This document shows positions 29,348 to 44,079 of a stretch of DNA of 64,000 nucleotides, piece after piece. The translations under genes and the position numbers were made by a program. Origin of the DNA: Prevotella sp. (GTDB taxonomy: Bacteria; Bacteroidota; Bacteroidia; Bacteroidales; Bacteroidaceae); the NCBI GenBank assembly GCA_017449675.1, contig JAFTFG010000027.1, forward strand, positions 57,949 through 121,948, written 5' to 3'. The stretch's first letter is position 1. Every line of letters begins with the position of its first letter. Below the pieces are notes generated by a model. It did not search any database. It was not told where the DNA came from and saw only the letters and a list, made by a program, of their open reading frames with translations.

Positions 29348-30562
29348 ATGAAGAGTTCGGAACTACAGAACATCAAACAGCGTTACAGTATCGTAGGTAA
29401 CTGCGAGGCTTTGAACCATGCGCTGGATGTCGCCCTACAGGTGGCACCCACTGACTTGAGTGTGCTTATTGTAGGAGAAAGCGGTGTCGGTAAGGAAATT
29501 ATTCCACGTGTCATTCATGACAATTCGCCCCGTAAACGGGAGAAATATTTTGCCATCAACTGTGGCTCCATCCCTGAGGGCACCATCGATAGTGAGTTGT
29601 TCGGACACGTGAAAGGCTCGTTTACCGGTGCCATCAACGATTCTCCCGGATATTTCGGAGTGGCTAACAAAGGAACGTTGTTCCTGGACGAGGTGGGCGA
29701 ACTGCCACTGGCTACTCAAGCACGACTGCTACGCGTGCTGGAGACCGGTGAGTATATTCCCGTAGGTGCTACCGAAGTACGTAAGACGGATGTACGAATC
29801 GTGGCTGCCACTAACGTCAATATCCGACAGGCTATCAGCGAAGGACGATTCCGTGAGGATCTCTATTATCGTCTGAACTCCATACCCATTCAGATTCCGC
29901 CATTACGTGAACGCGGAGAGGACATCGTACTCCTTTTCCGTCTCTTCGCCATGCAGATGGCAGAGAAATACAGGATGGACAAAGTGGTCCTGACTGAAGA
30001 TGCCAAACAGATGCTGATGCGATACAAATGGCCAGGCAACGTGCGCCAACTGAAAAATATCACAGAACAGATCAGTATTCTTAGCACGGAACGGGAAATC
30101 ACACCAGAGATTCTCGCCCACTTCATCCCACAGGATCAGGAGACCACCCAACTGGCTACCATTCATAGTGAGGGAGACCACTCGTTTGAGAATGAACGAG
30201 AGATTCTCTACAAGATTCTCTTCGAGTTACGCAGCAATGTCAATGACATGCGACGGGAGGTGAGTAATCTGAAGAAACAGATAGAGGATGTACAGACAGC
30301 ACCGGCTACGGCTATCCCGACAACACAACTCGCCCCCATCCAGCCGATCCAACCTATCACCACAGCGGAAGACGCAGTGGCTGAGGAATACGTGGAACCT
30401 GTCAGAGAACCTGAGAACCTCAACCTTGACGCATGGAGTCGTCAGGCATTGGAGAAAGCACTGGAGCGGAATGGCGGTAACCGCAAGAAGGCCGCCTTGG
30501 AATTGGGAATCAGTGACCGTACCCTATATCGTAGACTGAAACAATATGGACTGGACAAATAG
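29348..30562 (+). CDS. Sigma54-dependent transcriptional activator without receiver domain
   Basis: The 404-residue protein has a sigma54 activator AAA+ domain from residue 15: Walker A GESGVGKE, the sigma54-contact loop as GSFTGA (canonical GAFTGA), Walker B GTLFLDEVGE, and the arginine finger region REDLYYRLNSIPIQIPPLRER. A Pro/Thr-rich linker (about 320-350) leads to a Fis-type HTH (LGISDRTLYRRLKQYGL). There is no N-terminal sensor domain, so activity must be controlled by level or partner. The 3' end overlaps the LptE gene by 17 nt. The order activator-LptE-TPR-SecG recurs, to my knowledge, across Bacteroidales. Confidence 0.92.
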   Translation: MKSSELQNIKQRYSIVGNCEALNHALDVALQVAPTDLSVLIVGESGVGKEIIPRVIHDNSPRKREKYFAINCGSIPEGTIDSELFGHVKGSFTGAINDSPGYFGVANKGTLFLDEVGELPLATQARLLRVLETGEYIPVGATEVRKTDVRIVAATNVNIRQAISEGRFREDLYYRLNSIPIQIPPLRERGEDIVLLFRLFAMQMAEKYRMDKVVLTEDAKQMLMRYKWPGNVRQLKNITEQISILSTEREITPEILAHFIPQDQETTQLATIHSEGDHSFENEREILYKILFELRSNVNDMRREVSNLKKQIEDVQTAPATAIPTTQLAPIQPIQPITTAEDAVAEEYVEPVREPENLNLDAWSRQALEKALERNGGNRKKAALELGISDRTLYRRLKQYGLDK

Positions 30563-31067
30563 ACATATCAAACTCGTCATGATGATGGCAGCCATGCTGA
30601 TGATCACTGCCTGCTCAGTGAGTTATAAGTTCAATGGGGCCAGCATTGACTATACCAAGACGAAGACAATCCAGATCAGTGACTTCCCCATCCGATCCAG
30701 TTATGTGTGGGGACCGATGGGACCGATGTTCAACAACCAGTTGAAAGACGAGTTTGCTAATCATACCCGCCTACAACAGGTACGTCGTAACGGTGACCTA
30801 AAGATTGAGGGTGAGATCACCCAATATCAACAGCGCAACAAATCAGTGTCCGCCGAGGGCTACTCTGCCCAGACAGAACTCTCCATGACCGTCAATGTGC
30901 GCTTCACCAACAACGTCAATCATAACGAGGATTTTGAGCGCCAGTTTACGGCGACTTCAACATACGAGACAACGCAGTCTCTGAACTCCGTACAGGAGGA
31001 ACTCGTAACACAAATGGTCAAAGACCTGTGTGAACAGATATTCAACGCCACAGTGGCAAACTGGTAA
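30546..31067 (+). CDS. LptE-like LPS-assembly lipoprotein
   Basis: The 173-residue protein has a lipoprotein signal ending MLMITAC (Cys23) followed by SVSYKFNGASIDYTKTKTI, the typical N-terminus of Bacteroidota LptE-family proteins. Mature beta-strands include GDLKIEGEITQYQQ and ELSMTVNVRFTNN. LptE plugs and helps fold LptD in the outer membrane for lipopolysaccharide delivery. The gene overlaps the upstream activator gene and lies 8 nt before the next gene, so it is part of a four-gene operon ending in secG. Confidence 0.85.
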   Translation: MDWTNRHIKLVMMMAAMLMITACSVSYKFNGASIDYTKTKTIQISDFPIRSSYVWGPMGPMFNNQLKDEFANHTRLQQVRRNGDLKIEGEITQYQQRNKSVSAEGYSAQTELSMTVNVRFTNNVNHNEDFERQFTATSTYETTQSLNSVQEELVTQMVKDLCEQIFNATVANW

Positions 31068-31075
31068 TAGAAGAG

Positions 31076-31828
31076 ATGGATTTGGTAGAACTGATAAACC
31101 ACCCCGAACGAATGGATCGCGACACACTCTATGAGTTGCGGTCTACATTGGCTCTTCACCCCTACTTCCAGACCGTTCGGCTGTTGATGCTCCACAACCT
31201 CTATGTGTTGCACGATGCCACCTTTGATGAAGAATTAAGACGGGCGGCTGTCTATATCACAGACCGCAAGAACCTCTTTAATATGGTGGAGGCGGCTCAT
31301 TATCAACTCAGGCAAACGGCTAACAGCAAACGGCTAACAGCCAACAGCCAGGACGAAAATCGGACGATGGCACTCATCGACACCTTTCTCGACTCTATCC
31401 CTGCAGAGAATAACGCAGGGACTTCTCCCAAGAGCAAACGCCGACCGACTCCCAAAGACGCTACCGTCGACTATGTCGCCTATCTGCTTGAGAGCGAAGG
31501 AAGCAATGCCCTGGAAGACACGCCACAGATGCAAGGACAGGATCTCATCGACCACTTCCTGCACGAAGAGCAAGGACGGATCCTACTTAATGACTTCAAA
31601 GAGGAAGACAGCCAAGAAACCGTTCCTGTGGTGGAAGAAGAACCGGCTGAGGAGGAATATTTCACAGAAACCTTGGCTCGTATCTATATCAAACAAGGAC
31701 GCTATCAAAAGGCACTGGATATTATCCAGAGACTCAGTAGCAACTTCCCTGAGAAAAATGCATATTTTGCCGACCAAATCAGATTCTTAGAGAAATTAAT
31801 CATAAATAGTAATAAAAAACAAAAGTAA
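31076..31828 (+). CDS. TPR-like conserved protein
   Basis: The 250-residue protein has an N-terminal helical region (MDLVELINHPERMDRDTLYE), an acidic middle, and a C-terminal TPR-like pair of helices (TETLARIYIKQGRYQKALDIIQRLSSNFPEKNAYF). No signal peptide. Function unknown, but the position between lptE and secG appears conserved in Bacteroidales. Residues about 82-92 (ANSKRLTANSQ) are encoded by a run of ACGGCTAACAGC-like repeats that looks like an in-frame insertion. Cytoplasmic, or peripheral to the Sec/Lpt machinery. Confidence 0.75.
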   Translation: MDLVELINHPERMDRDTLYELRSTLALHPYFQTVRLLMLHNLYVLHDATFDEELRRAAVYITDRKNLFNMVEAAHYQLRQTANSKRLTANSQDENRTMALIDTFLDSIPAENNAGTSPKSKRRPTPKDATVDYVAYLLESEGSNALEDTPQMQGQDLIDHFLHEEQGRILLNDFKEEDSQETVPVVEEEPAEEEYFTETLARIYIKQGRYQKALDIIQRLSSNFPEKNAYFADQIRFLEKLIINSNKKQK

Positions 31829-31829
31829 A

Positions 31830-32234
31830 ATGTACACATTATTTGTAATTCTTATCGTGATTGCAGCCATACTGATGATCGGTATCGTGCTGATTCAAGA
31901 GTCAAAGGGTGGCGGTCTGTCATCCAGTTTCGCCAACTACAACCAGATTGGCGGTGTCCGCAAGACCACTGACTTTGTAGAGAAAGCCACATGGGGACTT
32001 GCCATTGCTATGGTACTCTTCAGTGTTGTATGCGCATGGGTTGCCCCCACTGCCAGCACAGAGGGTTCTGTTATGGAGAACTATCAGGCTCCTGCCACCA
32101 ATCCTAACAACCTGCCAGGCTTTGGTGCCAGCCAGACCAAGGATGCCGCCGCACCTGCTGCTGAAGGTACTACTCCTGCCGCACCCGCTACTCCTGCTGA
32201 TGCTCCTAAGGCACCTGCACAGCCTGCGAAGTAA
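31830..32234 (+). CDS. secG: Preprotein translocase subunit SecG
   Basis: The 134-residue protein has two membrane helices (3-22 and 54-72) with the SecG signature between them: VLIQESKGGGLSSSF and TTDFVEKATWGLAI. The C-terminal tail is a long Pro/Ala-rich stretch typical of Bacteroidota SecG. It stimulates SecYE-driven export in the inner membrane. The ATG is 1 nt after the stop of the TPR gene. It is the last gene of the sigma54-activator operon. A 13-bp inverted repeat follows at 32253. Confidence 0.93.
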   Translation: MYTLFVILIVIAAILMIGIVLIQESKGGGLSSSFANYNQIGGVRKTTDFVEKATWGLAIAMVLFSVVCAWVAPTASTEGSVMENYQAPATNPNNLPGFGASQTKDAAAPAAEGTTPAAPATPADAPKAPAQPAK

Positions 32235-32252
32235 AGAAAATGCAAAAAAGTG

Positions 32253-32285
32253 CGTGATTTATTTGGCCAATTCAAATAAATCACG
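32253..32285. repeat. 13-bp perfect inverted repeat between secG and tRNA-His
   Basis: CGTGATTTATTTG (32253-32265) and CAAATAAATCACG (32273-32285) with a 7-nt loop. It directly abuts the tRNA promoter box at 32286 and overlaps its likely -33 region, so it could be a terminator for secG or an operator. Confidence 0.65.
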
Positions 32286-32293
32286 TACCTTTG
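32286..32293 (+). promoter_or_regulatory. Promoter -7 box of tRNA-His
   Basis: TACCTTTG 30 nt before the tRNA 5' end. Confidence 0.65.
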
Positions 32294-32322
32294 CATCCGA
32301 TTTGAAAAGGACAATGCACGAT

Positions 32323-32397
32323 GGTGCCCGTAGTTCAGTTGGTTAGAGCGTCAGATTGTGGTTCTGAATGTCGACGGTTCGAGTCCGTCCGGGCACC
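32323..32397 (+). tRNA. tRNA-His (GTG)
   Basis: The sequence folds as a tRNA: acceptor GTGCCCG/CGGGCAC, anticodon arm TCAGA-TTGTGGT-TCTGA with anticodon GTG at 32358-32360, and T arm with GGTTCGAGTCC. The extra G at 32323 opposite C32397 is the G-1 mark of tRNA-His. The CCA end is not fully encoded. Followed by a terminator that is duplicated. Confidence 0.95.
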
Positions 32398-32403
32398 CAA
32401 AAG

Positions 32404-32437
32404 GAGACATCGCTGAAAAGCAATGTCTCTTTTTTTT
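32404..32437 (+). terminator. tRNA-His terminator, first copy
   Basis: Stem GAGACATCGCT/AGCAATGTCTC with a GAAA loop, then eight T. A second copy is at 32468-32499. Confidence 0.8.
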
Positions 32438-32467
32438 GTGAGCAGTGCAAAACGGCACCCCCAAAAG

Positions 32468-32499
32468 GAGACATCGCTGAAAAGCAATGTCTCTTTTTT
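32468..32499 (+). terminator. tRNA-His terminator, second copy
   Basis: Same hairpin as 32404-32437, followed by six T. Confidence 0.75.
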
Positions 32500-32509
32500 G
32501 TGAGCAGTG

Positions 32510-32688
32510 CCGTTGCCTCATGCAGGGAATGGTGATGCGGAAGAAGGTGCGCTCTTCGTCTGTAACGACGATAGCGCGATGTGAACCATTAGCCTTCAGC
32601 ACATTCTGAATAGTGGGAATACCAGTGCTTCATCCTTCTGTCATCTCTAACTCCTTCAGATACTCCCCCAAACGACGGAACAGACGAC
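32510..32688 (-). pseudogene. Remnant of a Schlafen/AlbA-type ATP-binding protein C-terminus
   Basis: On the minus strand one frame reads LFRRLGEYLKELEMTEG, then a TGA in place of an Arg codon, then STGIPTIQNVLKANGS and TDEERTFFRITIPC. This is the typical C-terminal winged-helix end of Schlafen-like AlbA/AAA_4 proteins (usual form EGRGTGIPTI). The 5' part is missing and is replaced by the DUF4357-like segment of the neighbouring frame. It is deletion debris at the edge of the defence island. Confidence 0.7.
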
Positions 32689-32822
32689 TTGGCGATGATG
32701 CTACCCTTTAAGACTGTGAAGCCATTGGTATCATAAAAGCCTTTTGCATCCTCATTCAGTACAAACGTATTTAAAACCTTTGCTTCTGCCATTGCTTTGG
32801 ATAAATCGTCAAGTCGTGACAT
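32589..32822 (-). pseudogene. DUF4357-like fragment fused out of frame to gene debris
   Basis: The 77-residue frame begins MSRLDDLSKAMAEAKVLNTF and then FVLNEDAKGFYDTNGFTVLK GS, which resembles DUF4357, a small domain often found at the C-terminus of restriction-associated GIY-YIG or related proteins. After SSVPSF (about 32685) it enters the Schlafen remnant in the wrong frame and ends. It begins 6 nt after the YhcG gene stop, so it could still be expressed as the last cistron of the operon. Probably a broken gene. Confidence 0.55.
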
Positions 32823-32828
32823 AAACTA

Positions 32829-34004
32829 TTATTGATTATCTTTGGTATTTGTGCAGTCAGCGCCTGCACAATTATTACTATATTCATTTAATTTGGTTTC
32901 AATCTCCTCTATAGTGGGTATAACACCTTCAAGTTTCTCTGGGTAGAACTTCTCAAGTTCATATTCAGATATTCCTATAGGCTGACTGCTCGACTCCAAT
33001 GCATATTGAGCCTGAGTATTGTCCTTGCTACGGCAAATAAGAAGACCAATTGTTGGATTGTCTTTTTCCTCTTCACGCAATTGGTGATTTACGGCTACGA
33101 TGTAACTACCAATTTGTCCGATATCTGCAGACGTGAACTTCCCAATCTTCACTTCAATCACCACATAGCAACGAAGCCGCAGGTTATAAAACAGCAAGTC
33201 TATGAAATTCTCTGTGTGTCCAACCTGCAACCTGTATTCTCTGCCAACATACGCAAAGCCAGTACCCAACTCAACCAGAAAATCTGTGATGTTCTTTAGT
33301 AACGCTAATTTCAACTCTGTTTCATTGTGGTGTTTCGTAATACCTGCAAATGCAAAGTTGTAGGGGTCTTTCATTATTTCCTGAGTCAAATCGCTGTCAG
33401 GTGTCGGAAGAATGGATTTGAAATTGGTGATCGCTTTTCCCTGACGTTCATAGAGTCCTGTGTCTATCCAGTTTAGAAGGAGTGAACGACTCCACCCATT
33501 TTCCAATGTTTGGCTGATATAGAATAGGGCTTTGTTTACATCACCCTTCACCTTGTCCATGATTAATTTATGATGGCCCCAAGGTACATTGAATATCGGA
33601 GATAATTCTTGTAGTGGAAATGAAGCCTGTATTTCGCCCTCAACTTGGGGGCAAATTGAGGTGACAGATGTTTCATTTAATTTGCCCTCAAGTTGGGGGT
33701 AAATTACAACAGACTTAGAATAAAGAAGATAGAAGCGTCTGCAATACCTTAAATTGGTGGCCGACAATCCCTCTGCTGTGGGCATTTCTCTCTTTAAGTC
33801 TATGCTGAGTTGGTTGATGACACTTTCACCCCACCTTTCTTCAACGTGCATCTCTACGATATCTCGTCCCAGCATAAAGTTATACATCAATTGCTCTGTA
33901 TTCACTTTGATAGCCGCCTTGACCTGACTTTGGCGGTAGCGCACGACAAGGGCTTTCACCCATTGCTTATAATCCTTATCCAGTATGCTTATTGATTTAT
34001 CCAT
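32829..34004 (-). CDS. YhcG-type (DUF1016) PD-(D/E)XK nuclease-domain protein
   Basis: The 391-residue protein has the DUF1016 N-terminal helical domain (to about 170; LSATNLRYCRRFYLLY) and a C-terminal PD-(D/E)XK domain with Asp269 in NFIDLLFYN and Glu284-x-Lys286 in VVIEVKIGKF, followed by the helix ADIGQIGSY. YhcG-like proteins are nuclease-like and frequently sit beside type I restriction genes and mobile elements; their role is unproven. A small internal duplication (PQLEGKL / PQVEGEI, about 103-124) is visible. It lies 24 nt after the large R-M gene and is co-transcribed with it. Confidence 0.87.
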   Translation of the reverse strand: MDKSISILDKDYKQWVKALVVRYRQSQVKAAIKVNTEQLMYNFMLGRDIVEMHVEERWGESVINQLSIDLKREMPTAEGLSATNLRYCRRFYLLYSKSVVIYPQLEGKLNETSVTSICPQVEGEIQASFPLQELSPIFNVPWGHHKLIMDKVKGDVNKALFYISQTLENGWSRSLLLNWIDTGLYERQGKAITNFKSILPTPDSDLTQEIMKDPYNFAFAGITKHHNETELKLALLKNITDFLVELGTGFAYVGREYRLQVGHTENFIDLLFYNLRLRCYVVIEVKIGKFTSADIGQIGSYIVAVNHQLREEEKDNPTIGLLICRSKDNTQAQYALESSSQPIGISEYELEKFYPEKLEGVIPTIEEIETKLNEYSNNCAGADCTNTKDNQ

Positions 34005-34028
34005 ATTATATATAATTCTATTGCGATA

Positions 34029-37000
34029 TTATTGGGCTATGACACACTTAAACATACCAATTGTCCGATATGTTGAATCAGCATCCAGCACAATGGTCTC
34101 GTATTCGTCGTTCAATGGAATAAGTTCTATCTTTTCATGCTCCCGTGTGCCGTCTTCATAATGTTTCCATACACTATGATATTTTTTAATAGTGCACTCA
34201 TCGTCAATTCCATCACATTCTGCCAGCACGATATCACCTTCACGTGTACCTCCTGCCTGATTATACCACTCAAACACACAGATGTCTCCATCTTTTATAT
34301 CTGGATACATAGAGTTACCCTTGGCATGAACTGCAAAATGACGCTTGGGGTCAGGCGTGAATCCGCTTCCTGATGCATCAACCCAGCCTTCTTCATCAGG
34401 TTGGTCTTCACCTTCAAATTTGCCACAGGCGGCACGGAGTGTATAGAGAGGGACGCAACCTTCGCGATATTCGGGAAGAACAAGAATTTTGGATTCTTCT
34501 TCAATTTCGACAGGGGTATGTCCTACTGTCTGTTCGTCATCTTCAATTAATTCACGATGCAGAACAGCCTTTTTGCGAGCAGAGGCTTCGTCACAAATTG
34601 TCTTAAGGGATAATATCTCGCTTTCAATTGTTTCAATTTTATCAACAATATTCTTTTGCTCTGATAATGTGGGAAGCGGGAACTCCAAATCATTCAACAT
34701 GGATTGATTAAGATTAGGCATCGTAAGTCCAATACTCTTACCTAAAATTGATAACTGCAAATCATCACCCACGTACAAATGCAAAAAGAATTTTGGGAGT
34801 ATTTTATCGCTTTTTAGACGTATAAAAAACGAGCCTGTCCCACATAAACAATTCTTGTCACTCGCTGTTATTATAGCACATTTGCTCAGATCACCACGTC
34901 TGGCAATTATTATGTCGTTCTCTTGCAATTTATACCTGCTTAAACGCTCGGCAGTCTTTTTTGATATTCTTGAAATCTTATCGTAACTGACGCTATTTGT
35001 TATTATGTCTTGTGGATTTATTAAACAATATTCACCTCCGGATATATATTCTTCTTTGTGAATCATTGTACCAAACGGACCTGTCGAGATTGAATTTGCA
35101 ATATCCCTCAACCTTGCTTTTCTTCCTTTTACGCTGGCCACTATTCCTTTTATATTCTCTTGCAATTCTGCAATCTTCTCTTTTGCATCCTGCACCTCTG
35201 CATCAATCTTCTGACATTCTGCAACAATTTTTTGCTGTATTGAGCCTGATGGATAAGGTATGTTGATTTTTGCGAGGTTAGACCTGTTTAATCCACCTTG
35301 TGCAGAACCTGTTATATTCGACCTCAACAAATCCTGCCCAAATGCAGAATGTAGGTAGAAAAACAAATATTCCTGTGTGGTTTTATTTCCACACCGTATA
35401 ACAAAAACATGTTCATTGACCATTGCTTTTTGTCCATCTAACTCATCTCTGACGATGGCCACTTTACCTGTCAGTGCCCCATCTTTACAAATCAACAAAT
35501 CTCCCTTCTGAAGTTTTCCCCTTTCTGCTCTTTCAAAAAACTCGATTGGAACATATTTGGGCTCAGACAGATTAAGAAATCCACTACTATTGTCAATGTG
35601 TTCTCCACCTAATGACAATACTCCACTTGTTATATTTCCAACTCCACCAGTTGGACGAGAGCCAGTCTCAATAGTAGAAGCGATTTCTGCAAACGCTTTC
35701 AACGGCCATTTAAATGCGACTTTTACTAAATCCCTTTCAATTTCCGTCTTAACCGCCAAGTTAAAGGCTGTTCTATCAAATTTTATTAAGTCGGTCAATC
35801 TTGCATGTTGCAATAGTCCATTCGTATATTCTAATTTAGGCTGGACACTGTTGTTTACTTTTACGCCAAAAGAGAATTTATTGCAACAGTCTATCATATG
35901 TTTCCTTAGTGCATATGAATATTTTGTAACGTCATTATCGTCGCTAGGATTATAAAGAGGCGTTTCAATGTATTTTATCGAATTGATGGCTTGAACGATT
36001 TCAGTGTCTTTATCGTCATCATCGTCTGAGGTTTCCGTTTCCTGTATGTTACTTGTCAGGTACTTGATACCTTCATCGCCTTTGCGGTTGCTCCAGTCAT
36101 AGCCCAAGAATTTGACGACCTCTGCCTTGTTACTCTTGTTGTCAACCTTTTCAGGCGGGGATTGCAAAATGGCAACGATATTATTTTCCGTCTGAATATA
36201 GACGTTAAGTTTTTTGCATTCAATGTCTTTGGCAAAAACAATGAACTGTCTTCTATATTCAGTTTCTTCAAGTTGCTTGTAATCGCTACTTGAAAGGAAA
36301 AGAGTAAACTGCTTTTTGTATTCCTTTGAATTTTCCTTTAAGCCTTCTCTGAAATATCTCGATTTGGCAAACCATTCTTTTTGAAGGCTTTTGCTTATGC
36401 TGCTCTTTTTAAAGTTAGAGGTATAGTCTTTGAACACATCGGTTTCTTTAAGGTTATCCCCAAGCATATTATCCTGCATAAAGGCAAAGTATTCGTCTTT
36501 GGGATAGCCCTGCTTTTGTATGTATGAATCTATCGCACCGCTGGTGGTATACTGGGTGTAATCTTTTTTGTCCATGAAAGTGTGGAGCAACCCTTCCGAG
36601 TTTTTCTTTACCTTTTGGGCAAAAAGGATAACGGTGTTTGTTCCTGTTGAACCAAATGTGCGACTGTTCATCACAGCAATTGCTAGGATATTGAAATTCG
36701 CGAAAATGATTTCACGTGTTTTAGTGTAAATGTTCTCGTTGCTCAACAGAGAACTTGGAAGGACTATGCCCATCAGACCATCTTTCTTCAAGAAATGCTG
36801 TGCACGCTCTACAAAGAAGCACTCAATCGACCTATTTGTGGAGTATGCTTTTTCTTCGACAGTCTTTGCAAGTTCAAATTGATCACGATCTTTTTGCTCC
36901 ATCGTATTCAAGAATCCTTTCACGCTGTAGGGTGGGTTGGCAATAATACAGTCAAAAGACTCTTTGTCAAACCCTTGATAGCGCACATCCATTGTGTTGA

Positions 37001-38582
37001 TATGACTCAGTGAGTCCTTAAAGACGATGCGGGAATCCTGACTGCCGTTGATGATAGTAGCGATTTTTGCAACTTGGCTCAAAGTCTGACTTTTCTCAAT
37101 ACCGTAAATCTTAGCCTTGGGGTAATGTTTTACGAACTCCGTCAGGAAATGACCGGCACCACAGGCGTAATCCAGCACCTTCACCTTGTCTGTATTAGGG
37201 AACTGAGGTAAAGAGTTGATGATAAAGTTTACAATTGGAAGTGGCGTAAAGAACTGCCCTTCCGTCTGGTGCACGTTTTTGGAAAGAAGACCTTCAAACA
37301 GGTCACCAAAGAAATGGTTGGTCTCGCTTGAACTCAGATTAATATCTTGTATAAGAGCAGCTATCTTGATAAGAATCTGGAAGTTCATTTCAAATTCTTC
37401 CCTGTTCTCCACATCAATGAAGTTGAACTTCTTGATGTTGTAAAACTTCATTTCTTCAAACAGTTCCTTGATGCCTGCAAAAAGTCCATTGGTAACAAGA
37501 GATCGACCTGTATCTTCAAAAATCTGCTTGATATCTTCCTCGTCCTTGTTTACAACCTCCACATTAAAGAGTTGCTGCTTTCCCTGCTGGTACAATTTCA
37601 ACAGTCGGTTGCAGTATTCCTTTGGCGTGTCACGGGCTATTCCCTTATAATAAAACTGTAGGTCATCAGGATTGTTGAGTTCGTCGGTAATCTTACAGAG
37701 GAACAAATCGATAAGGATGTAGAACGAGTGCTCAAAATCTGTGATGGCATGATTCCTCAATATCGTTGCAAACTCATGGTATATGGGACGTATCTCTGCA
37801 TGTGATAGCCCTTTCAAATCGTTGATTGTATATTTGAGTTTGCCAACAGAATAAGCCGCAATGTCGTCTTCGAAAAGACCTTTTGTCTCGAAGGACTTTC
37901 CGTAAGTCAGATTCCATACCTCAAAATATTTCCCCTGGGCTTCTGCAAATGAAATTGGATCTTCAAGTTCTTTGAGACGTCTATCATTATCCTTAAGTGT
38001 GATAATGTGGTTTTTAAGAATTATTTCGTCTTCTTCAAAGTTCGCCGCAAAAAGAGCCAAGTTTTGACATGGTTCCATAACACGCACTAGCGGAGCAAGA
38101 TAACTGAACAACTGTCCACCATCTTTTTGCATCAAGTTCCATTCTTTGCTAAACTCAGTACCATAAGTTTTGTTTTCTATCAGAACAAGAGGATTATACT
38201 CTTTATCAAAAACAAGAATGTCACCGTATGAAGGTTTGTTGACATGTCCTACTCTGAACGCAGGTTCAAAGACAATATGCTTGGGGGCATATCCTTTTTT
38301 AAGCAAGAGATGAACACAGACCAAACAAACAAAATTCTCGTTTGCGCTAAAGTTCAAGGTCGTATCCCTGTGGATTACAAACCCCTTTGCAGGATTATCT
38401 TTTGAAGGGAATTCGCCTTCCTTGAAAGAATGATCGATGGGGACATACGTGATTTTCTGAGTATCGAAATTTACTTCAATACTTGCGCCCTGCTGATACT
38501 CTCTTCTATATATATTGCCATTTTTTGTGAATCCGAAATCCGGGTGAACCAAAAGGACCGCTAAATTGTCTTTTGTAATCAT
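34029..38582 (-). CDS. All-in-one restriction-modification protein with C-terminal S24 (LexA/UmuD) autoprotease
   Basis: This is a 1517-residue fusion. An N-terminal PD-(D/E)XK-like nuclease: Asp121 in YGDILVFD, Glu136-x-Lys138 in LVLIENKT. Then an HsdM-like N6-adenine methylase: TEGQFFTPLPIV (440-451), SAM motif VLDYACGAGHF (469-479), catalytic NPPY (549-552). Two HsdS-type regions follow, about 955-1115 and 1150-1305, each ending in a coiled coil (1116-1150, 1306-1345). The C-terminus (about 1370-1517) is an S24 peptidase: AHAKGNSMYPDIKDGD with Ser1424, TIKKY with Lys1466, and AACG with Cys1386-Gly1387 where UmuD is cleaved. It probably methylates and cuts DNA as one chain, like type IIG/type I hybrids. 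The protease part is unusual. It sits within the Fic-GIYYIG-RM-YhcG operon. Confidence 0.88.
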   Translation of the reverse strand: MITKDNLAVLLVHPDFGFTKNGNIYRREYQQGASIEVNFDTQKITYVPIDHSFKEGEFPSKDNPAKGFVIHRDTTLNFSANENFVCLVCVHLLLKKGYAPKHIVFEPAFRVGHVNKPSYGDILVFDKEYNPLVLIENKTYGTEFSKEWNLMQKDGGQLFSYLAPLVRVMEPCQNLALFAANFEEDEIILKNHIITLKDNDRRLKELEDPISFAEAQGKYFEVWNLTYGKSFETKGLFEDDIAAYSVGKLKYTINDLKGLSHAEIRPIYHEFATILRNHAITDFEHSFYILIDLFLCKITDELNNPDDLQFYYKGIARDTPKEYCNRLLKLYQQGKQQLFNVEVVNKDEEDIKQIFEDTGRSLVTNGLFAGIKELFEEMKFYNIKKFNFIDVENREEFEMNFQILIKIAALIQDINLSSSETNHFFGDLFEGLLSKNVHQTEGQFFTPLPIVNFIINSLPQFPNTDKVKVLDYACGAGHFLTEFVKHYPKAKIYGIEKSQTLSQVAKIATIINGSQDSRIVFKDSLSHINTMDVRYQGFDKESFDCIIANPPYSVKGFLNTMEQKDRDQFELAKTVEEKAYSTNRSIECFFVERAQHFLKKDGLMGIVLPSSLLSNENIYTKTREIIFANFNILAIAVMNSRTFGSTGTNTVILFAQKVKKNSEGLLHTFMDKKDYTQYTTSGAIDSYIQKQGYPKDEYFAFMQDNMLGDNLKETDVFKDYTSNFKKSSISKSLQKEWFAKSRYFREGLKENSKEYKKQFTLFLSSSDYKQLEETEYRRQFIVFAKDIECKKLNVYIQTENNIVAILQSPPEKVDNKSNKAEVVKFLGYDWSNRKGDEGIKYLTSNIQETETSDDDDDKDTEIVQAINSIKYIETPLYNPSDDNDVTKYSYALRKHMIDCCNKFSFGVKVNNSVQPKLEYTNGLLQHARLTDLIKFDRTAFNLAVKTEIERDLVKVAFKWPLKAFAEIASTIETGSRPTGGVGNITSGVLSLGGEHIDNSSGFLNLSEPKYVPIEFFERAERGKLQKGDLLICKDGALTGKVAIVRDELDGQKAMVNEHVFVIRCGNKTTQEYLFFYLHSAFGQDLLRSNITGSAQGGLNRSNLAKINIPYPSGSIQQKIVAECQKIDAEVQDAKEKIAELQENIKGIVASVKGRKARLRDIANSISTGPFGTMIHKEEYISGGEYCLINPQDIITNSVSYDKISRISKKTAERLSRYKLQENDIIIARRGDLSKCAIITASDKNCLCGTGSFFIRLKSDKILPKFFLHLYVGDDLQLSILGKSIGLTMPNLNQSMLNDLEFPLPTLSEQKNIVDKIETIESEILSLKTICDEASARKKAVLHRELIEDDEQTVGHTPVEIEEESKILVLPEYREGCVPLYTLRAACGKFEGEDQPDEEGWVDASGSGFTPDPKRHFAVHAKGNSMYPDIKDGDICVFEWYNQAGGTREGDIVLAECDGIDDECTIKKYHSVWKHYEDGTREHEKIELIPLNDEYETIVLDADSTYRTIGMFKCVIAQ

Positions 38583-38598
38583 TATATGGAATCTTTAC

Positions 38599-39249
38599 TT
38601 ATCCGATGCTTTCCTTTTCTTTCCTAATATCATCCAGCACCTTCCCGTTATACGAGAAATACTTGGCACCTTGGTAGGCACCAGAGGGAGTGCGGCGGTC
38701 TTCGGGCATGAATGTGCCGACGAAGGGGGAGAGTTTATAAATTCGGCCTTCGTATTCGATGCTGTCATCAGAAGCGACCTTTACGACAAGACCCGTTGGG
38801 TCAAACGTAACCTGTTCGCCAATCTTGATGCCACACATAGAGAATTTAAAACGAGGGCGCTTCACCTCTCGTTTCTGATGTTCTTTGTGCTCATTTTCTG
38901 AGATGGGCTTGTTATCCTCATAGAGTGTTACCTCTGCATCGTCTATCGTCATTGCGATATCACGGAAGATGTCGAGGGCAATCTGTGGGGCAACATTGAA
39001 GAACTCACGATTCTGACGGATACGCAAATCGGTAAGGCGGTCAATGGTTTTATGCACCAACTTCTCAACCTCATTGTATTTCGTTGTCTTCATCGTGGCA
39101 AAGATCTCGAAGGGCAGAGGTACTGCCGTATTGTCGAGTTCCTTACTTCGCACATCCACAGGGCGGCTACTCTTGCCAATCTTCACCCAGTCTTCACGGA
39201 AACTGGGATTGGTTAGTATGTAAACATAGCCAGGTTCTTTGTTTGCCAT
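38599..39249 (-). CDS. GIY-YIG nuclease-family protein (T5orf172-like)
   Basis: The 216-residue protein begins GYVYILTNPSFREDWVKIGK, a GIY-YIG/T5orf172 domain (to about 95), with the conserved Arg and later Glu (NREFFNV). A charged linker is followed by a second small domain (about 130-205; CGIKIGEQVTFDPTG, IYKLSPFVGTFMPEDR, YQGAKYFSYNGK) that resembles RAMA-type restriction-associated modules, though I am unsure of the exact family. It lies 16 nt upstream of the R-M gene and 26 nt after the fic gene, so it is part of the operon. It may be a second nuclease or a DNA-reading accessory. Confidence 0.78.
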   Translation of the reverse strand: MANKEPGYVYILTNPSFREDWVKIGKSSRPVDVRSKELDNTAVPLPFEIFATMKTTKYNEVEKLVHKTIDRLTDLRIRQNREFFNVAPQIALDIFRDIAMTIDDAEVTLYEDNKPISENEHKEHQKREVKRPRFKFSMCGIKIGEQVTFDPTGLVVKVASDDSIEYEGRIYKLSPFVGTFMPEDRRTPSGAYQGAKYFSYNGKVLDDIRKEKESIG

Positions 39250-39268
39250 ATCTATTCTAACTTATTGT

Positions 39269-39300
39269 TTTTCTATTACTTAACTTCCCAATGACCAGTT
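39269..39300. repeat. 32-bp direct repeat, copy in the fic 3' end
   Basis: The last codons of fic and its stop (minus-strand GHWEVK-stop). A near copy (30 of 32) lies beyond the fic promoter at 40404-40435. Confidence 0.72.
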
Positions 39301-40307
39301 TTGTTGCTACCTACTCTGACTATCAGTCCTTGATTCTTCAATTCGCCAAGACGACGTTTGATGGTAGCCTCTGATACGCCAAGTCTCGATGCGTATTCAG
39401 CATAGTTGAGTGTGCCATCCTTGGCAACGATCTGATATAGTTGTTGTTTTATCGGGTCAGAAATGGAATTTATCGGGTCAGAAGGAGTCGTTATCGGGTC
39501 AGAAGATTGTGATTTCTTATATTCCTCAATCTCTTTATTGATATTCCTGATATGCTCTTCCAACATAAAGGATCGGAATGGAGCAAGCGAATCCTGCTCT
39601 CGAGAATCAACCAGAGCCTGGATATATTCCGCTTTATCCTCCTTAATGATTTTTACAGGAACTAAACCAAATTCGTATTGCAGATGGTTCATTATCAAGC
39701 GAGACATACGTCCGTTACCATCCACCCACGGATGAATGGTCACCAACTGATAGTGGGCATCAAAACTTAACAGATATTTGGCTATCTCATCGTCTGTCTG
39801 GAGTAATTGACGGCGATGCTCGTTTAGTTGCTGACAGAACTCCTCTAACTTCACAGGAACTTTCTGAAAATTCATATACGAGCGACCGCCAATGCCAGCC
39901 GTCACACCCACCAAACGCAAGTCACCTTTTGACGCATCAAAAACTCCTTGTGCCGTATTGTAGATTCCACCAGTATTCTTCATCACAACCGCAGACATAT
40001 CTTTCAGCATATCAATTGAGAAGTCCTTGTGCTTGTGAGCCAACCGCATAGAATATTCGTAGGCTGCTTTCAGGTCGATATTCATCATTTGTTCCTGTAT
40101 ACTTCGCCCTTTGGCAGAGATGCCTTCATCAAACAACAACTGGTTTTCTATCTCCGTTACCGTCGATCCTTCTATTGCCGTAGAGTGGGTAATCAGAGAA
40201 TAGAGATAGAACTTCTGGTAGTCTATCTGCTCCGCTATACCCAGAGAACGGTATTCGTCCAAAGTCCTAAGAAGTATTTCTGCCAATTTTTGTTGATTGT
40301 TCGACAT
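39276..40307 (-). CDS. Fic-domain protein with N-terminal inhibitory motif and C-terminal winged helix
   Basis: The 343-residue protein has the Fic core IHPWVDGNGRMSRL (191-204), which transfers AMP to protein targets, and an N-terminal inhibitory helix motif STAIEG (42-47) of the [S/T]xxxE[G/N] type, making it a class II self-inhibited Fic. A linker of three DPI repeats (SDPITTPSDPINSISDPIK, from three TCGGGTCAGA-type DNA repeats) leads to a winged-helix domain (about 298-343). The start is 40307; a longer TTG-initiated frame begins inside the promoter box at 40329-40336. It is the first gene of the restriction operon. Its 3' end is duplicated at 40404-40435. Confidence 0.9.
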   Translation of the reverse strand: MSNNQQKLAEILLRTLDEYRSLGIAEQIDYQKFYLYSLITHSTAIEGSTVTEIENQLLFDEGISAKGRSIQEQMMNIDLKAAYEYSMRLAHKHKDFSIDMLKDMSAVVMKNTGGIYNTAQGVFDASKGDLRLVGVTAGIGGRSYMNFQKVPVKLEEFCQQLNEHRRQLLQTDDEIAKYLLSFDAHYQLVTIHPWVDGNGRMSRLIMNHLQYEFGLVPVKIIKEDKAEYIQALVDSREQDSLAPFRSFMLEEHIRNINKEIEEYKKSQSSDPITTPSDPINSISDPIKQQLYQIVAKDGTLNYAEYASRLGVSEATIKRRLGELKNQGLIVRVGSNKTGHWEVK

Positions 40308-40328
40308 ATATCTATGATTATTTTGGTA

Positions 40329-40336
40329 CAAAAATA
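40329..40336 (-). promoter_or_regulatory. Promoter -7 box of the fic-R-M operon
   Basis: Minus strand TATTTTTG, 21 nt before the fic ATG at 40307. It would drive fic, the GIY-YIG gene, the R-M gene and yhcG. Confidence 0.6.
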
Positions 40337-40343
40337 CAAAAAA

Positions 40344-40369
40344 GGTAGCAAAGGGACCTCTTTACTACC
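40344..40369. terminator. Terminator between the efflux and restriction operons
   Basis: GGTAGCAAAG and CTTTACTACC (9 of 10 paired) flank GGACCT. Both strands then run into T-rich tracts. It lies downstream of the minus-strand ABC operon and upstream of the fic promoter. Confidence 0.6.
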
Positions 40370-40403
40370 ATCTTTTTTGTATCTTTTAGCAATAGGGTAT
40401 TGC

Positions 40404-40435
40404 TTTTCTACTACTTAACTTCCCAATGACCACTT
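40404..40435. repeat. 32-bp direct repeat, orphan fic 3' end
   Basis: On the minus strand it encodes SGHWEV(V)-stop like the fic C-terminus but has no gene in front of it. It is a relic of a second fic-type gene or a recombination footprint. Confidence 0.7.
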
Positions 40436-40440
40436 ACTAA

Positions 40441-41487
40441 TCACCTATTCTTCCGATAACTCTTCACTGCCCATAGTCCCATGAAGGCAGAGATGGCAAG
40501 GAGCGCATACACCTGATGGGCGATACTCTGGAACGTACCACCCCTTACGAAGATAGTACGGATGGCATCGATGAAGTAATGCATGGGGTTGACATAAGTG
40601 GTCAGATAGGCCCATGACGGCATGGAGCGTGTAGGGGTAAAGAGTCCGCTAAGCAACATCAGACATACCACGAAGAACCACATGACCAGCATAGCCTGTT
40701 GCATGGTATCACTGTAGTTGGAAATGATCAACCCCAATGATGAGAAGAAGAGGGCCAACAGTACGGCCAACAGATATACCAGTCCTAACGGTCCCTGACA
40801 GGTGATCCCATAGACAGCCCATGACAATAGCAGACAGACAGTAAGTACGAGTAGGCCGATGACCCAATACGGGATGAGTTTCGCCAGGATAAAAGCCCAT
40901 TTCGAGACAGGTGTCACGTTTATCTGTTCGATGGTACCCATCTCCTTCTCCCCCACGATATTCAAGGCAGGCAGGAAGCCACAGAGCATCATCATCAGAA
41001 TACCCATCAGTGCAGGAATCATAAACACCTTGTATTCCTGGTGTTTGTTATACAAGAGGTGAGTGGTGAGAGAGGTATGGTGAGAGGCAAGAGAGATGTC
41101 AGAGGAGACTATCTGACTGAGGTAGCCGCTGCCTATTGCCCCTTTGGTACCATTGACCGCATTGGCAGCAATGAGATAGCGGCCGTCCTTGATTTCCACG
41201 ATGATGTCCGCACGACTCTTCTCTACATCCTCCAAGGCATCGGCATAGGTCGCCTTCTGACCGTTGAAGACAAAGTAGTTACTCGCCTCTATACGATGCA
41301 CGAACTGTTGCGACAGTGTGGTACGGTCGTGATCTACCACGTCTACCACGATATTCTTCACCTCCTGGTTCATCACCCACGGCATCACACACATGATGAC
41401 AACAGGGAAGATGAAGATGATTTTCGGCATAAACGCATTACGCCGTATCTGTAGCAGTTCCTTTTGGATGAGATAGCGTAGTGTCAT
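40441..41487 (-). CDS. ABC-2 type transporter permease (second of pair)
   Basis: The 348-residue protein has an N-terminal helix (21-40), a large extracytoplasmic domain (about 45-160) and five C-terminal helices, the ABC-2 exporter layout of YhhJ/YbhR. The motif NIVGEKEMGTIEQINVTPVSKW is the family's amphipathic coupling segment. It overlaps the preceding permease gene by 4 nt and is the last gene of the five-gene efflux operon. Substrate unknown; relatives export drugs or bile-salt-like compounds. Confidence 0.88.
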   Translation of the reverse strand: MTLRYLIQKELLQIRRNAFMPKIIFIFPVVIMCVMPWVMNQEVKNIVVDVVDHDRTTLSQQFVHRIEASNYFVFNGQKATYADALEDVEKSRADIIVEIKDGRYLIAANAVNGTKGAIGSGYLSQIVSSDISLASHHTSLTTHLLYNKHQEYKVFMIPALMGILMMMLCGFLPALNIVGEKEMGTIEQINVTPVSKWAFILAKLIPYWVIGLLVLTVCLLLSWAVYGITCQGPLGLVYLLAVLLALFFSSLGLIISNYSDTMQQAMLVMWFFVVCLMLLSGLFTPTRSMPSWAYLTTYVNPMHYFIDAIRTIFVRGGTFQSIAHQVYALLAISAFMGLWAVKSYRKNR

Positions 41488-42545
41488 AGAGTAAGCCGTT
41501 TGTTAAAGTTCTTAAGAGCAAGGAGCAACAATAGTATCGTCATGCCACTGAGTACAGCAACCTCAGGCAGTACCTCACGGATGCCGACACCCATGATCAT
41601 CAGTTTTCGCATGGCCTGAATATAGTAGCGAGGAGGTATCACCGCCGAGATCCATTGCAGGATTTGCGGCATCGACTCCACAGGGAAGAGCATACCCGAG
41701 AGCATGACGGTAGGTAAGAGGAGTACCATCGCCGAGACGAGCAAGGCCACGAACTGTGTCTGTGCGATATTCGATATCAGCAGTCCCAGAGACAGAGCCA
41801 ACAAGATATAGAGTAACGACACGGCCACGATCCAGAACAGAGACCCCGCCAAGGGTACGTCAAGTACCGTGAATGACATGGTGAGGATGACGACAAGTAC
41901 CAAGAAGGCTTGCAAGAGATAAGGTACCGCCTTCGCTACGATGATCATCAGCGGTTGGACAGGAAACACGAGCAGGACCTCCATGGTGCCCCGTTCCTTC
42001 TCACGGACGATAGATACCGAAGTCATCATCGCACAGATGAGTAGCAGCAGCATACCCATGATGGCCGGTACGAAGTTATAAGCCGACTTCATACGAGGGT
42101 TATAGAGCATTTTCACGTGGATCCTTGACGATGTCCCATTGGCGATAACTTGTTGAGCATATGATGTCCATTGCTGTGCCATATTCGGGTCGGATCCGTC
42201 TACAATCAACTGGATACCGCTCCGCTTAGCAGCGAAGTCAGGGGCGAACACCACAGCCATGTCAGCCTTCTGACTGCGTATCAACCATTCAGCCTCCTTG
42301 GGAGTCCCTACGGTAGCGATGACGGTGAAATATTCCGAAGCCGCCAAACGGTCGACAGCCACCTGTGTCAGATGATCCATCTGGGAGGTAACCGCCACCG
42401 TACGCACATTCCTCACATCGTTGGTGATGGCGAAGCCGAAGAGTAGCATCAGCACTACAGGCATGCCAAAGAGAATAAGCATCGTACGCTTGTCGCGTAG
42501 GATGTGCTTTGCTTCTTTGATGACGAAACTCACGAACTGTTTCAT
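41484..42545 (-). CDS. ABC-2 type transporter permease (first of pair)
   Basis: The 353-residue protein has the same topology as its neighbour: an N-terminal helix (TMLILFGMPVVLMLLFGFAI), a periplasmic domain and five helices, with SIVREKERGTMEVLLVFPVQP as coupling segment. The two presumably form a heterodimer driven by the double ATPase encoded upstream. The 64-nt gap before it holds a 16-bp tandem repeat (42554-42604). Located in the inner membrane. Confidence 0.88.
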   Translation of the reverse strand: MKQFVSFVIKEAKHILRDKRTMLILFGMPVVLMLLFGFAITNDVRNVRTVAVTSQMDHLTQVAVDRLAASEYFTVIATVGTPKEAEWLIRSQKADMAVVFAPDFAAKRSGIQLIVDGSDPNMAQQWTSYAQQVIANGTSSRIHVKMLYNPRMKSAYNFVPAIMGMLLLLICAMMTSVSIVREKERGTMEVLLVFPVQPLMIIVAKAVPYLLQAFLVLVVILTMSFTVLDVPLAGSLFWIVAVSLLYILLALSLGLLISNIAQTQFVALLVSAMVLLLPTVMLSGMLFPVESMPQILQWISAVIPPRYYIQAMRKLMIMGVGIREVLPEVAVLSGMTILLLLLALKNFNKRLTL

Positions 42546-42553
42546 TTTTCTTT

Positions 42554-42604
42554 CGATATTGCGATATAACGATATTGCGATATAACGATATTACGATATT
42601 ACGA
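42554..42604. repeat. Tandem CGATATTGCGATATAA repeat
   Basis: Two perfect 16-bp units (42554-42569, 42570-42585) and a degenerate continuation, located between the ABC ATPase stop and the permease start. It would sit in the message just before the permease start and may affect its translation. Confidence 0.75.
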
Positions 42605-42609
42605 CATTG

Positions 42610-44079
42610 TTAGTCCGACGAGCGTGTTGCCTGACGGGCCAGGTAAGTAAACACATGATCCATATCCGGTTGATTCAACGTACGTTTCAGTTCCTCGGGA
42701 GTCCCCATCGCACTGATCTTACCATCCACCATGATTGAGATACGGTCACAGTATTCCGCCTCATCCATATAATGCGTAGTGACGAATACCGTGATACCTC
42801 GTGCGGCAGCCTCGTAGATCAGTTCCCAGAACTGCCGACGTGTAGCCGGGTCTACGCCACCCGTCGGTTCATCAAGGAACACCACTCCAGGCTCGTGGAA
42901 GATAGATACAGAGAAGGCCAGTTTCTGTTTCCACCCCAACGGCAACGAGCCCACCAGGTCATCCTTATGCTCCTCGAACTGTAACTGTTTCAGAAGCGTG
43001 TCCGTCTTTGTCTTGATCTCCTCCTCCTTCATACCATAGATACCTGCGAAGAGCCGGATATTCTCCGCAACGGTCAGGTCTTCGTAGAGAGAGAACTTCT
43101 GTGACATATAACCGATATGCCGTTTAATCTGCTCGTATTCCGTCCGGATATCATAGCCACAGACCCGTCCAGTACCACTGGTCGGCTGGTTCAGACCCGT
43201 CAGCATATGCATGGCCGTCGTCTTACCCGCACCGTTAGCCCCCAGGAATCCGAAGATTTCCCCTTTCTTCACACTGAACGAAATATCATCGACAGCGTGG
43301 AAGTCGCCAAAGGCCTTCACCAGATGCTCCACCTCAATGACGTTTTGCTCCGTTTGCTGCGACCATGTCGCAGCAGAATGAACAATAGGTGGAGGATTGA
43401 AGATAGCGGAGAAGCGGTCGAGGATGATGTCAGGCTTATCGATGCCCATGAGTTGTCCTTCACGTAAGAAAGCCACACGTTCACACTGGCGTACCTCATC
43501 GAGATAAGGAGTGGAGGCCAGGATTGTGATACCACGCTCTTTCAGCGTAGACAACATCTCCCAGAACTCCTTACGAGAGACAGGGTCGACACCCGTAGTA
43601 GGTTCATCGAGGAAAAGAACACTAGGTTGATGGACGAGGGCGCAGGAGAGAGCCAGTTTCTGTTTCATACCCCCCGACAGAGCCCCCGCCTTACGGTCAT
43701 GGAAGCGTTCTATCTGCGAGTAGATGGCCTTAATACTGTCGTAGCCCTCCTCCACCGTCGTACCGAAGAGGGTGGCAAAAAACTCCAGGTTCTCCCTCAC
43801 CGTCAAGTCCTGATAGAGAGAGAACCTACCCGGCATATACCCTACTCTTCTGCGTATCTCCTTCATCTGGTGCACCACGTCAAAGCCGTCGACCGAAGCC
43901 GTCCCCGTATCAGGTAACAGCAGGGTACAGAGGATGCGGAACAACGAGGTCTTACCAGCACCGTCAGGGCCGATCAGTCCGAAGACCTCCCCTTTCTCCA
44001 CAGAGAGCGACACGTCCTGTAGTGCCTTCACCCTGCCGTATGACTTCGATATATGACTAACCTCTATGGCGTACATCAC
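42610..44079 (-). CDS. Double ATP-binding ABC transporter protein (YhiH/YbhF type)
   Basis: The 489-residue protein contains two complete ABC ATPase domains. NBD1 (about 4-235): Walker A GPDGAGKTS, signature ALSGGMKQKL, Walker B VLFLDEPTTGVDP. NBD2 (about 247-480): GANGAGKTT, signature SLPLGWKQKL (LPLGW form, usual for this branch), VVFLDEPTGGVDP and switch His in FVTTHYMDEAE. Twin ATPases of this type pair with two ABC-2 permeases and a HlyD protein in tripartite exporters. It lies 22 nt after the HlyD gene. Cytoplasmic face of the inner membrane. Confidence 0.93.
   Translation of the reverse strand: MMYAIEVSHISKSYGRVKALQDVSLSVEKGEVFGLIGPDGAGKTSLFRILCTLLLPDTGTASVDGFDVVHQMKEIRRRVGYMPGRFSLYQDLTVRENLEFFATLFGTTVEEGYDSIKAIYSQIERFHDRKAGALSGGMKQKLALSCALVHQPSVLFLDEPTTGVDPVSRKEFWEMLSTLKERGITILASTPYLDEVRQCERVAFLREGQLMGIDKPDIILDRFSAIFNPPPIVHSAATWSQQTEQNVIEVEHLVKAFGDFHAVDDISFSVKKGEIFGFLGANGAGKTTAMHMLTGLNQPTSGTGRVCGYDIRTEYEQIKRHIGYMSQKFSLYEDLTVAENIRLFAGIYGMKEEEIKTKTDTLLKQLQFEEHKDDLVGSLPLGWKQKLAFSVSIFHEPGVVFLDEPTGGVDPATRRQFWELIYEAAARGITVFVTTHYMDEAEYCDRISIMVDGKISAMGTPEELKRTLNQPDMDHVFTYLARQATRSSD

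Follow-up and report, generated by a model that had tools for sequence, protein, structure and literature searches.

Organization of the locus and of the enzyme

The window analyzed here is a 64,000-nucleotide stretch from a Prevotella sp. (GenBank assembly GCA_017449675.1, contig JAFTFG010000027.1, positions 57,949 to 121,948), in which we found a gene for a single-chain restriction-modification (R-M) enzyme ending in an S24-type autoprotease domain (Table 1). A first-pass annotation made from the sequence alone had read a nuclease, an N6-adenine methylase, two specificity regions and an S24 peptidase in this one open reading frame (ORF), and Pfam and PADLOC agreed with it, the nuclease match being weak. 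The search that it had proposed, for Methylase_S and Peptidase_S24 in the same protein, found both with Pfam: Methylase_S in two stretches (2e-29) and Peptidase_S24 at residues 1383-1509 (5e-13; 49.1 bits against a cut-off of 23.3). Since residues 1-1345 covered positions 1-1269 of the 1271 in the PADLOC Type IIG model PDLC03624 (1e-248), we placed the S24 part after a nearly end-to-end, complete IIG enzyme. With a predicted nuclease, N6 methylase and specificity domains on one chain, the window enzyme belongs to Type IIG. The Pfam match to the nuclease was below the cut-off, and this assignment rests on the PADLOC model and on D121, E136 and K138, which were conserved in 13 of 13 usable relatives (14 were aligned; L064 gave no usable alignment). 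Weak similarity to RM.BsaXI was also detected across aa 1-390.

Table 1. Features of the IIG-S24 gene and its neighbors in the window (aa, residues of the window enzyme)
Feature	Position	Strand	Remarks
IIG R-M enzyme with C-terminal S24 tail	34029..38582	minus	1517 aa, ATG start; Pfam, PADLOC
N-terminal nuclease region, aa 1-390, HSDR_N_2-like, weak	37413..38582	minus	Pfam E 0.001, below cut-off
PD-(D/E)XK-like stretch, D121...E136-N-K138	38169..38222	minus	alignment of relatives, codon recheck
N6-adenine methylase domain, aa 422-665, NPPY at 549	36588..37319	minus	Pfam N6_Mtase 8e-32
First target recognition domain (TRD1), about aa 959-1147	35142..35708	minus	Pfam, PADLOC
Second target recognition domain (TRD2), aa 1157-1324	34611..35114	minus	Pfam
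Linker, aa 1346-1375, from end of IIG body to tail	34458..34547	minus	tail-less relatives stop at 1345
S24 autoprotease tail, aa 1376-1517	34032..34457	minus	Pfam, PDB profile, AlphaFold, LexA alignment
Predicted self-cleavage site Cys1386-Gly1387	34422..34427	minus	aligned with Ala-Gly 84-85 of LexA chain
Predicted catalytic Ser1424 (in SMYP)	34311..34313	minus	LexA alignment, codon recheck
Predicted catalytic Lys1466 (TIKKY, starting 1464)	34185..34187	minus	LexA alignment, codon recheck
DUF1016/YhcG PDDEXK nuclease gene	32829..34004	minus	24 bp downstream of IIG-S24 gene
T5orf172 gene	38599..39249	minus	16 bp upstream of IIG-S24 gene
Fic gene with winged helix-turn-helix (HTH)	39276..40331	minus	26 bp upstream of T5orf172

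Four other Bacteroidales had full-length homologues built in the same way (L066, L068, L070 and L074; ORFs of 1484, 1517, 1491 and 1518 aa, respectively), one of which, L070, is a named strain, Prevotella aff. ruminicola Tc2-24. These four were among the best 80 of 290 stretches confirmed in a tail-alignment scan with one genome per species, and the 80 loci mentioned below are the same set. Across the five IIG-S24 enzymes the recognition domains vary and the tail is kept: mean identity was 92% in the nuclease region, 98% in the methylase and 76% in the tail, with 38% in TRD1 (955-1117), 45% in TRD2 (1157-1307) and 51% in the linker (1349-1375). We also examined the longest ORF of six tail-less relatives. 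Three of them (L166, L167 and L168) aligned up to window residue 1345 and then stopped, L166 with 73% identity over residues 77-935; the other three (L169, L170 and L174) aligned just to 849-1015, and two of these run off their locus. Because the first three end at 1345, a cut at 1386/1387 would free the whole enzyme together with 41 further residues. The first-pass annotation had supposed that cleavage takes about 131 residues from the specificity half; the natural ends of these relatives contradict this, and on that ground we rejected a model in which cleavage strips the specificity domains. Since cleavage would leave a whole enzyme, any 'off' effect would need either destruction of the product or loss of a tail-mediated assembly.

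The tail is a LexA/UmuD-type S24 domain

A profile built from 56 tails matched 19 PDB sequences at E<=0.001, and every one of them was LexA or UmuD; the window tail alone matched LexA weakly (best E 0.002). In the alignment of the window tail with LexA, C1386-G1387 stood opposite Ala84-Gly85, SM opposite SM and TIKK opposite TVKR, with S1424 and K1466 opposite the Ser of SM and the Lys of TVK in LexA. Rechecking of the codons placed NPPY and all of these residues exactly where the annotation had them. An AlphaFold model of aa 1365-1517, a step that the annotation had suggested, had a pLDDT of 90.6, and its least confident block (64), model residues 21-30, corresponds to window residues 1385-1394 and contains the putative cut site. 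A larger model of aa 940-1517 was poor (pLDDT 48.6) and was not used, and the LexA/UmuD identity comes from the profile and the alignment. Judged from these comparisons, the window tail is a LexA/UmuD-type S24 domain with the predicted catalytic pair and cleavage site, as the annotation had proposed. A LexA repressor proper was rejected as an identity for the protein (TIGR00498 gave 25.5 bits against a cut-off of 110.95, and no HTH family was among the Pfam matches of the window enzyme).

The patterns by which the 80 loci were found include the cleavage or Ser motif, so the conservation of these motifs there is partly selected. We therefore give the motif-blind sample separately: in its 24 non-window matches over 788 genome slots (some genomes counted twice), [A/C]-G, Ser and Lys were kept in 24 of 24 tails. 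Among all aligned tails, the Gly was present in 102 of 104, the Ser in 104 of 104 and the Lys in 103 of 104, so that the loss of Ser or Lys in homologues, which the annotation had named as a ground for giving up the idea, was seen in a single row. The P1 residue was Cys in 78 of the 104 rows and Ala in 26, and the spacing from Gly to Ser was 34-38 residues. Kept out of this count were 23 viral loci (L041-L063) that are seemingly HTH repressors (L042 alone was checked with Pfam), and L012, L018 and L026, which fell below the row cut-off, were read separately. The dN/dS ratio was 0.04-0.13 in 10 of the 11 tail pairs with finite dS (12 pairs were compared), values that are rough in three of the ten where dS exceeded 1, and it was 0.24 in the near-identical pair L081/L082. 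By these ratios the tails are under purifying selection. Around position 7237 of L085 (HsdR-S24), the reading frame is interrupted about 85 residues into the tail.

Similar tails are carried by unrelated enzymes

The annotation had treated a single protein. We rejected a tail confined to the window enzyme: the tail proved portable, and its bearers include restriction enzymes of several classes as well as defence-type helicases (SLFN and DUF3427). Classed by BLAST to Pfam-named examples, the bearers at the 80 loci were SLFN-g3 helicases (34), HsdR (14), S subunits (10), IIG enzymes (4), Type III Res (1), a MutH-like enzyme that we take to be of the Sau3AI type (1), HNH (1) and others (15). Among the last group are L135 (a Type ISP enzyme), L116 (a NOV_C protein) and L109 (an ordinary HTH repressor); Pfam scans covered all of this group but seven (L087, L107, L127, L131, L134, L141 and L142). 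The Type ISP enzyme is a 1886-aa ORF at 1766-7426 of L135 with the S24 tail at its end. Tailed DUF3427 helicases were among the genome matches, and no stand-alone methylase was recognised as a bearer in the best 80 of 290 loci.

Partner genes were also compared. Beside ten HsdR-tailed genes tested there were N6-methylases in three, S subunits in five and neither in two (L105 and L095). A separate methylase was confirmed by Pfam at five loci (L072, L073, L085, the Type III locus L140, and L115 with a C5-methylase), and the tail was on the restriction polypeptide in all five, the bearer at L073 being classed by BLAST. At L115 (4105-9328) the order is C5-methylase, MutH-like enzyme with S24 tail, an unidentified 444-aa gene and Vsr; this looks like a Type II system in which the nuclease alone is tailed. 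At S-tailed loci the upstream partner was an N6-methylase protein of 668-890 aa in six of six tested. These partners are read as putative fused nuclease-methylases of the IIB/BcgI type; nuclease matches among them were found only in L064 and L067, to HSDR_N_2 over the cut-off and to VRR_NUC below it, respectively.

When L066 (IIG) was compared with L069 (S), the sole common block was 575 bp with 87% identity, made up of the linker end, the tail and about 45 bp past the stop. L100 (HNH) and L115 (MutH-like) had the tail and >2 kb downstream in common but differed in the enzyme. Between the window (30001-44000) and L064, nothing was shared apart from the tail and the T5orf172 gene upstream. A quick tree of 103 tails needed 26 label changes. 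In a careful 31-row tree, the rows of which were picked after the first tree, the approximately unbiased (AU) test rejected a single clade for IIG (AU p 0.003) and for S (AU p 0.004) and was borderline for HsdR tails (AU p 0.0499). Taken on sequence grounds, these comparisons show that similar tails have moved between unrelated restriction enzymes, and such swapping suggests a built-in, damage-triggered switch of bacterial immunity. The idea that tails are kept alike within one genome was dropped, as 23 of 25 genomes searched (of the 80 with loci) had a single match to the window tail; the two exceptions were G1121, with two halves of a broken tail, and G1120, with three matches. Whole-protein close relatives were not confirmed in viral contigs, the tail was not found in phage records, and plasmid records gave one 32% match, in Halomonas. 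Viral contigs held 25 tail loci, including an HsdR-like enzyme with a tail (L040) and an unidentified 388-aa protein with a tail (L039).

A proposed role in restriction alleviation

In 25 tail genomes searched (of the 80 with loci), RecA was found in 24 and ClpX in 25. LexA exceeded the NCBIfam cut-off in none of them, a threshold that was reached in just 6 of 9 control genomes having any match. Weaker LexA matches, of up to 89 bits against 110.95, occurred in 20 of the 25 and were mostly UmuD-sized ORFs or tails; a match in G1114 (191 aa, positions 24-202) is possibly LexA-like. LexA is thus likely absent from the tail genomes. The tail was the sole S24 match in 6 of the 25, and this S24 domain was the only one found in the window's own assembly (54% complete).

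The reading that we favor, at somewhat short of an even chance, is a IIG enzyme with a portable LexA/UmuD-type self-cleaving tail, in which RecA-triggered cleavage would lead to ClpXP destruction and restriction alleviation. When RecA filaments form on single-stranded DNA (ssDNA), the tail would cut itself at Cys1386-Gly1387, and the R-M body, freed intact, would then end in ...YTLRAAC, a C-terminus similar to that of cleaved LexA. The exposed LexA-like degron would then be recognized by ClpXP and the enzyme destroyed, so that restriction would stop at a time when repair or conjugative entry leaves unmethylated sites exposed. In this way the enzyme would carry its own restriction alleviation and need no LexA regulon. 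We favor the 'off' direction because DNA repair leaves a cell with exposed unmethylated sites, because C-degrons lie right beside the cleavage site of LexA-like proteins, according to passages in PMC5742171 and PMC10584840, and because ClpXP degradation of HsdR is described in a passage of PMC11109961 as a known form of restriction alleviation.

Several observations weigh against this reading. R-M tails mostly end in AAC at the predicted cut, as opposed to VAA in LexA, and recognition of AAC ends by ClpX would be a guess by analogy. The cleaved product would resemble a natural complete enzyme, which in the absence of a working degron would stay active and might even be activated. Destruction of a IIG enzyme or an S subunit would end methylation too. 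The Omnitrophota tails L120 and L127 keep Ser and Lys and lack the cleavage Gly (AVAT). A search for RecA in the assembly of the window itself found none, a result that at 54% completeness is uninformative. Plasmid-induced alleviation of EcoKI is independent of LexA cleavage, as stated in part of PMC11109961, and part of PMC7101444 reports the LexA-like IrvR as an exception to RecA control.

Cleavage might instead turn the enzyme on, as UmuD is activated by cleavage: a tail dimer would keep the enzyme latent, and damage or phage ssDNA would free an active form. The complete appearance of the tail-less relatives, which the cleaved product would resemble, agrees with this, as do the AAC ends, which are not proven degrons, and the tails on SLFN-g3 and DUF3427 helicases. 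We nevertheless consider it rather improbable, since restriction should act at DNA entry, ahead of damage signalling, and R-M activation during damage would be dangerous to a host that has unmethylated sites.

It is likewise unlikely that self-cleavage answers to a signal other than RecA, such as dimer concentration, a phage protein, the T5orf172 product or DNA binding by the enzyme. IrvR would be a precedent, LexA was over cut-off in none of the 25 tail genomes searched, and T5orf172 adjoins the system in the window and in L070, L074 and L064; against this stand the presence of RecA in 24 of these 25 and the fact that LexA and UmuD were the sole PDB families matched by the tail profile at E<=0.001. 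A tail that no longer cleaves, which the annotation had offered as an alternative, seems very unlikely. S24 domains dimerise, restriction enzymes often need two copies, and L120 and L127 would suit a tail that only dimerises or tethers; however, dimerisation alone would not demand that the Gly, the P1 Ala/Cys, the Ser and the Lys be co-conserved on unrelated enzymes, as they were in every motif-blind tail. L120 and L127 are natural candidates for non-cleaving forms. An artefact (frameshift, misassembly or chance fusion), conceivable in a draft assembly of 30 contigs, can be set aside almost entirely, since independent copies of the fusion in four further genomes exclude chance and the sequencing error that the annotation had named as a ground for refutation, and the tails are under purifying selection.

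More broadly, and tentatively, the swapped LexA-type self-destruct tail may be a general module of immunity control, through which RecA filaments would remove DNA-cutting enzymes at the protein level. Its proposed range would take in Type I, ISP, IIG, IIB-like, II and III enzymes and SLFN/DUF3427 helicases, in bacteria seemingly without LexA.

Relation to known systems

The tail has the Ser-Lys pair and the [A/C]-G site 34-38 residues ahead of the Ser that mark the LexA/UmuD/CI superfamily (S24), but here it is the C-terminal tail of long restriction enzymes and not part of an HTH repressor or a polymerase subunit. Residues 1-1345 have the nuclease, N6 methylase and two recognition domains of Type IIG enzymes (PDLC03624; RM.BsaXI is a solved relative), whereas the window enzyme has 172 extra residues with the autoprotease domain. 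As in the ClpXP alleviation of EcoKI, a restriction polypeptide would come under proteolytic control in DNA damage, and HsdR is a common tail bearer; in the EcoKI case (PMC11109961), however, the protease belongs to the host and attacks the translocating complex, while here the trigger would sit in the enzyme. Fusions of C proteins to restriction endonucleases also join a regulator to a restriction enzyme, but in PMC3850674 the control described is transcriptional and no form other than the full-length fusion was seen, and the tail is a predicted post-translational switch.

The annotation knew of no R-M system with such a built-in switch, and we found no description of an S24-tailed restriction enzyme in the literature searched, which largely excluded subscription papers and bioRxiv. 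A word search (S24, LexA, autoproteol) gave no passage on an S24-tail fusion in a 2025 R-M review (PMC12707154), and word searches of PMC10853773, PMC11090510 and PMC3874165 likewise gave none. The components are known; their combination was not found described. How R-M systems spare hosts with repair-made unmethylated sites is understood for few enzymes. If the favored reading is true, one autoprotease tail over several R-M classes would answer this for many enzymes, the co-protease role of RecA would extend from gene regulation to direct immunity control, and the control could be tested with a single point mutant.

Neighboring genes

The Fic-HTH, T5orf172, IIG-S24 and DUF1016/YhcG genes follow one another head to tail on the minus strand (32829-40331) with gaps of 16-26 bp, and the Fic and DUF1016/YhcG genes possibly share an operon with IIG-S24. 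T5orf172, with 87-93% aa identity, also lies upstream of the tailed system in L070, L074 and L064 and was not found at L066 or L068. The four-gene cluster is compact and island-like and is close to a tRNA-His gene (32324-32398). A direct-repeat scan for island ends gave, besides short repeats, just a 43-nt terminator-like hairpin immediately after tRNA-His, duplicated in tandem (32396-32438 and 32460-32502, 98%). The Fic gene is flanked by a 38-bp repeat (39263-39300 and 40398-40435, 92% identity), the outer copy of which may be what is left of the end of a second Fic gene.

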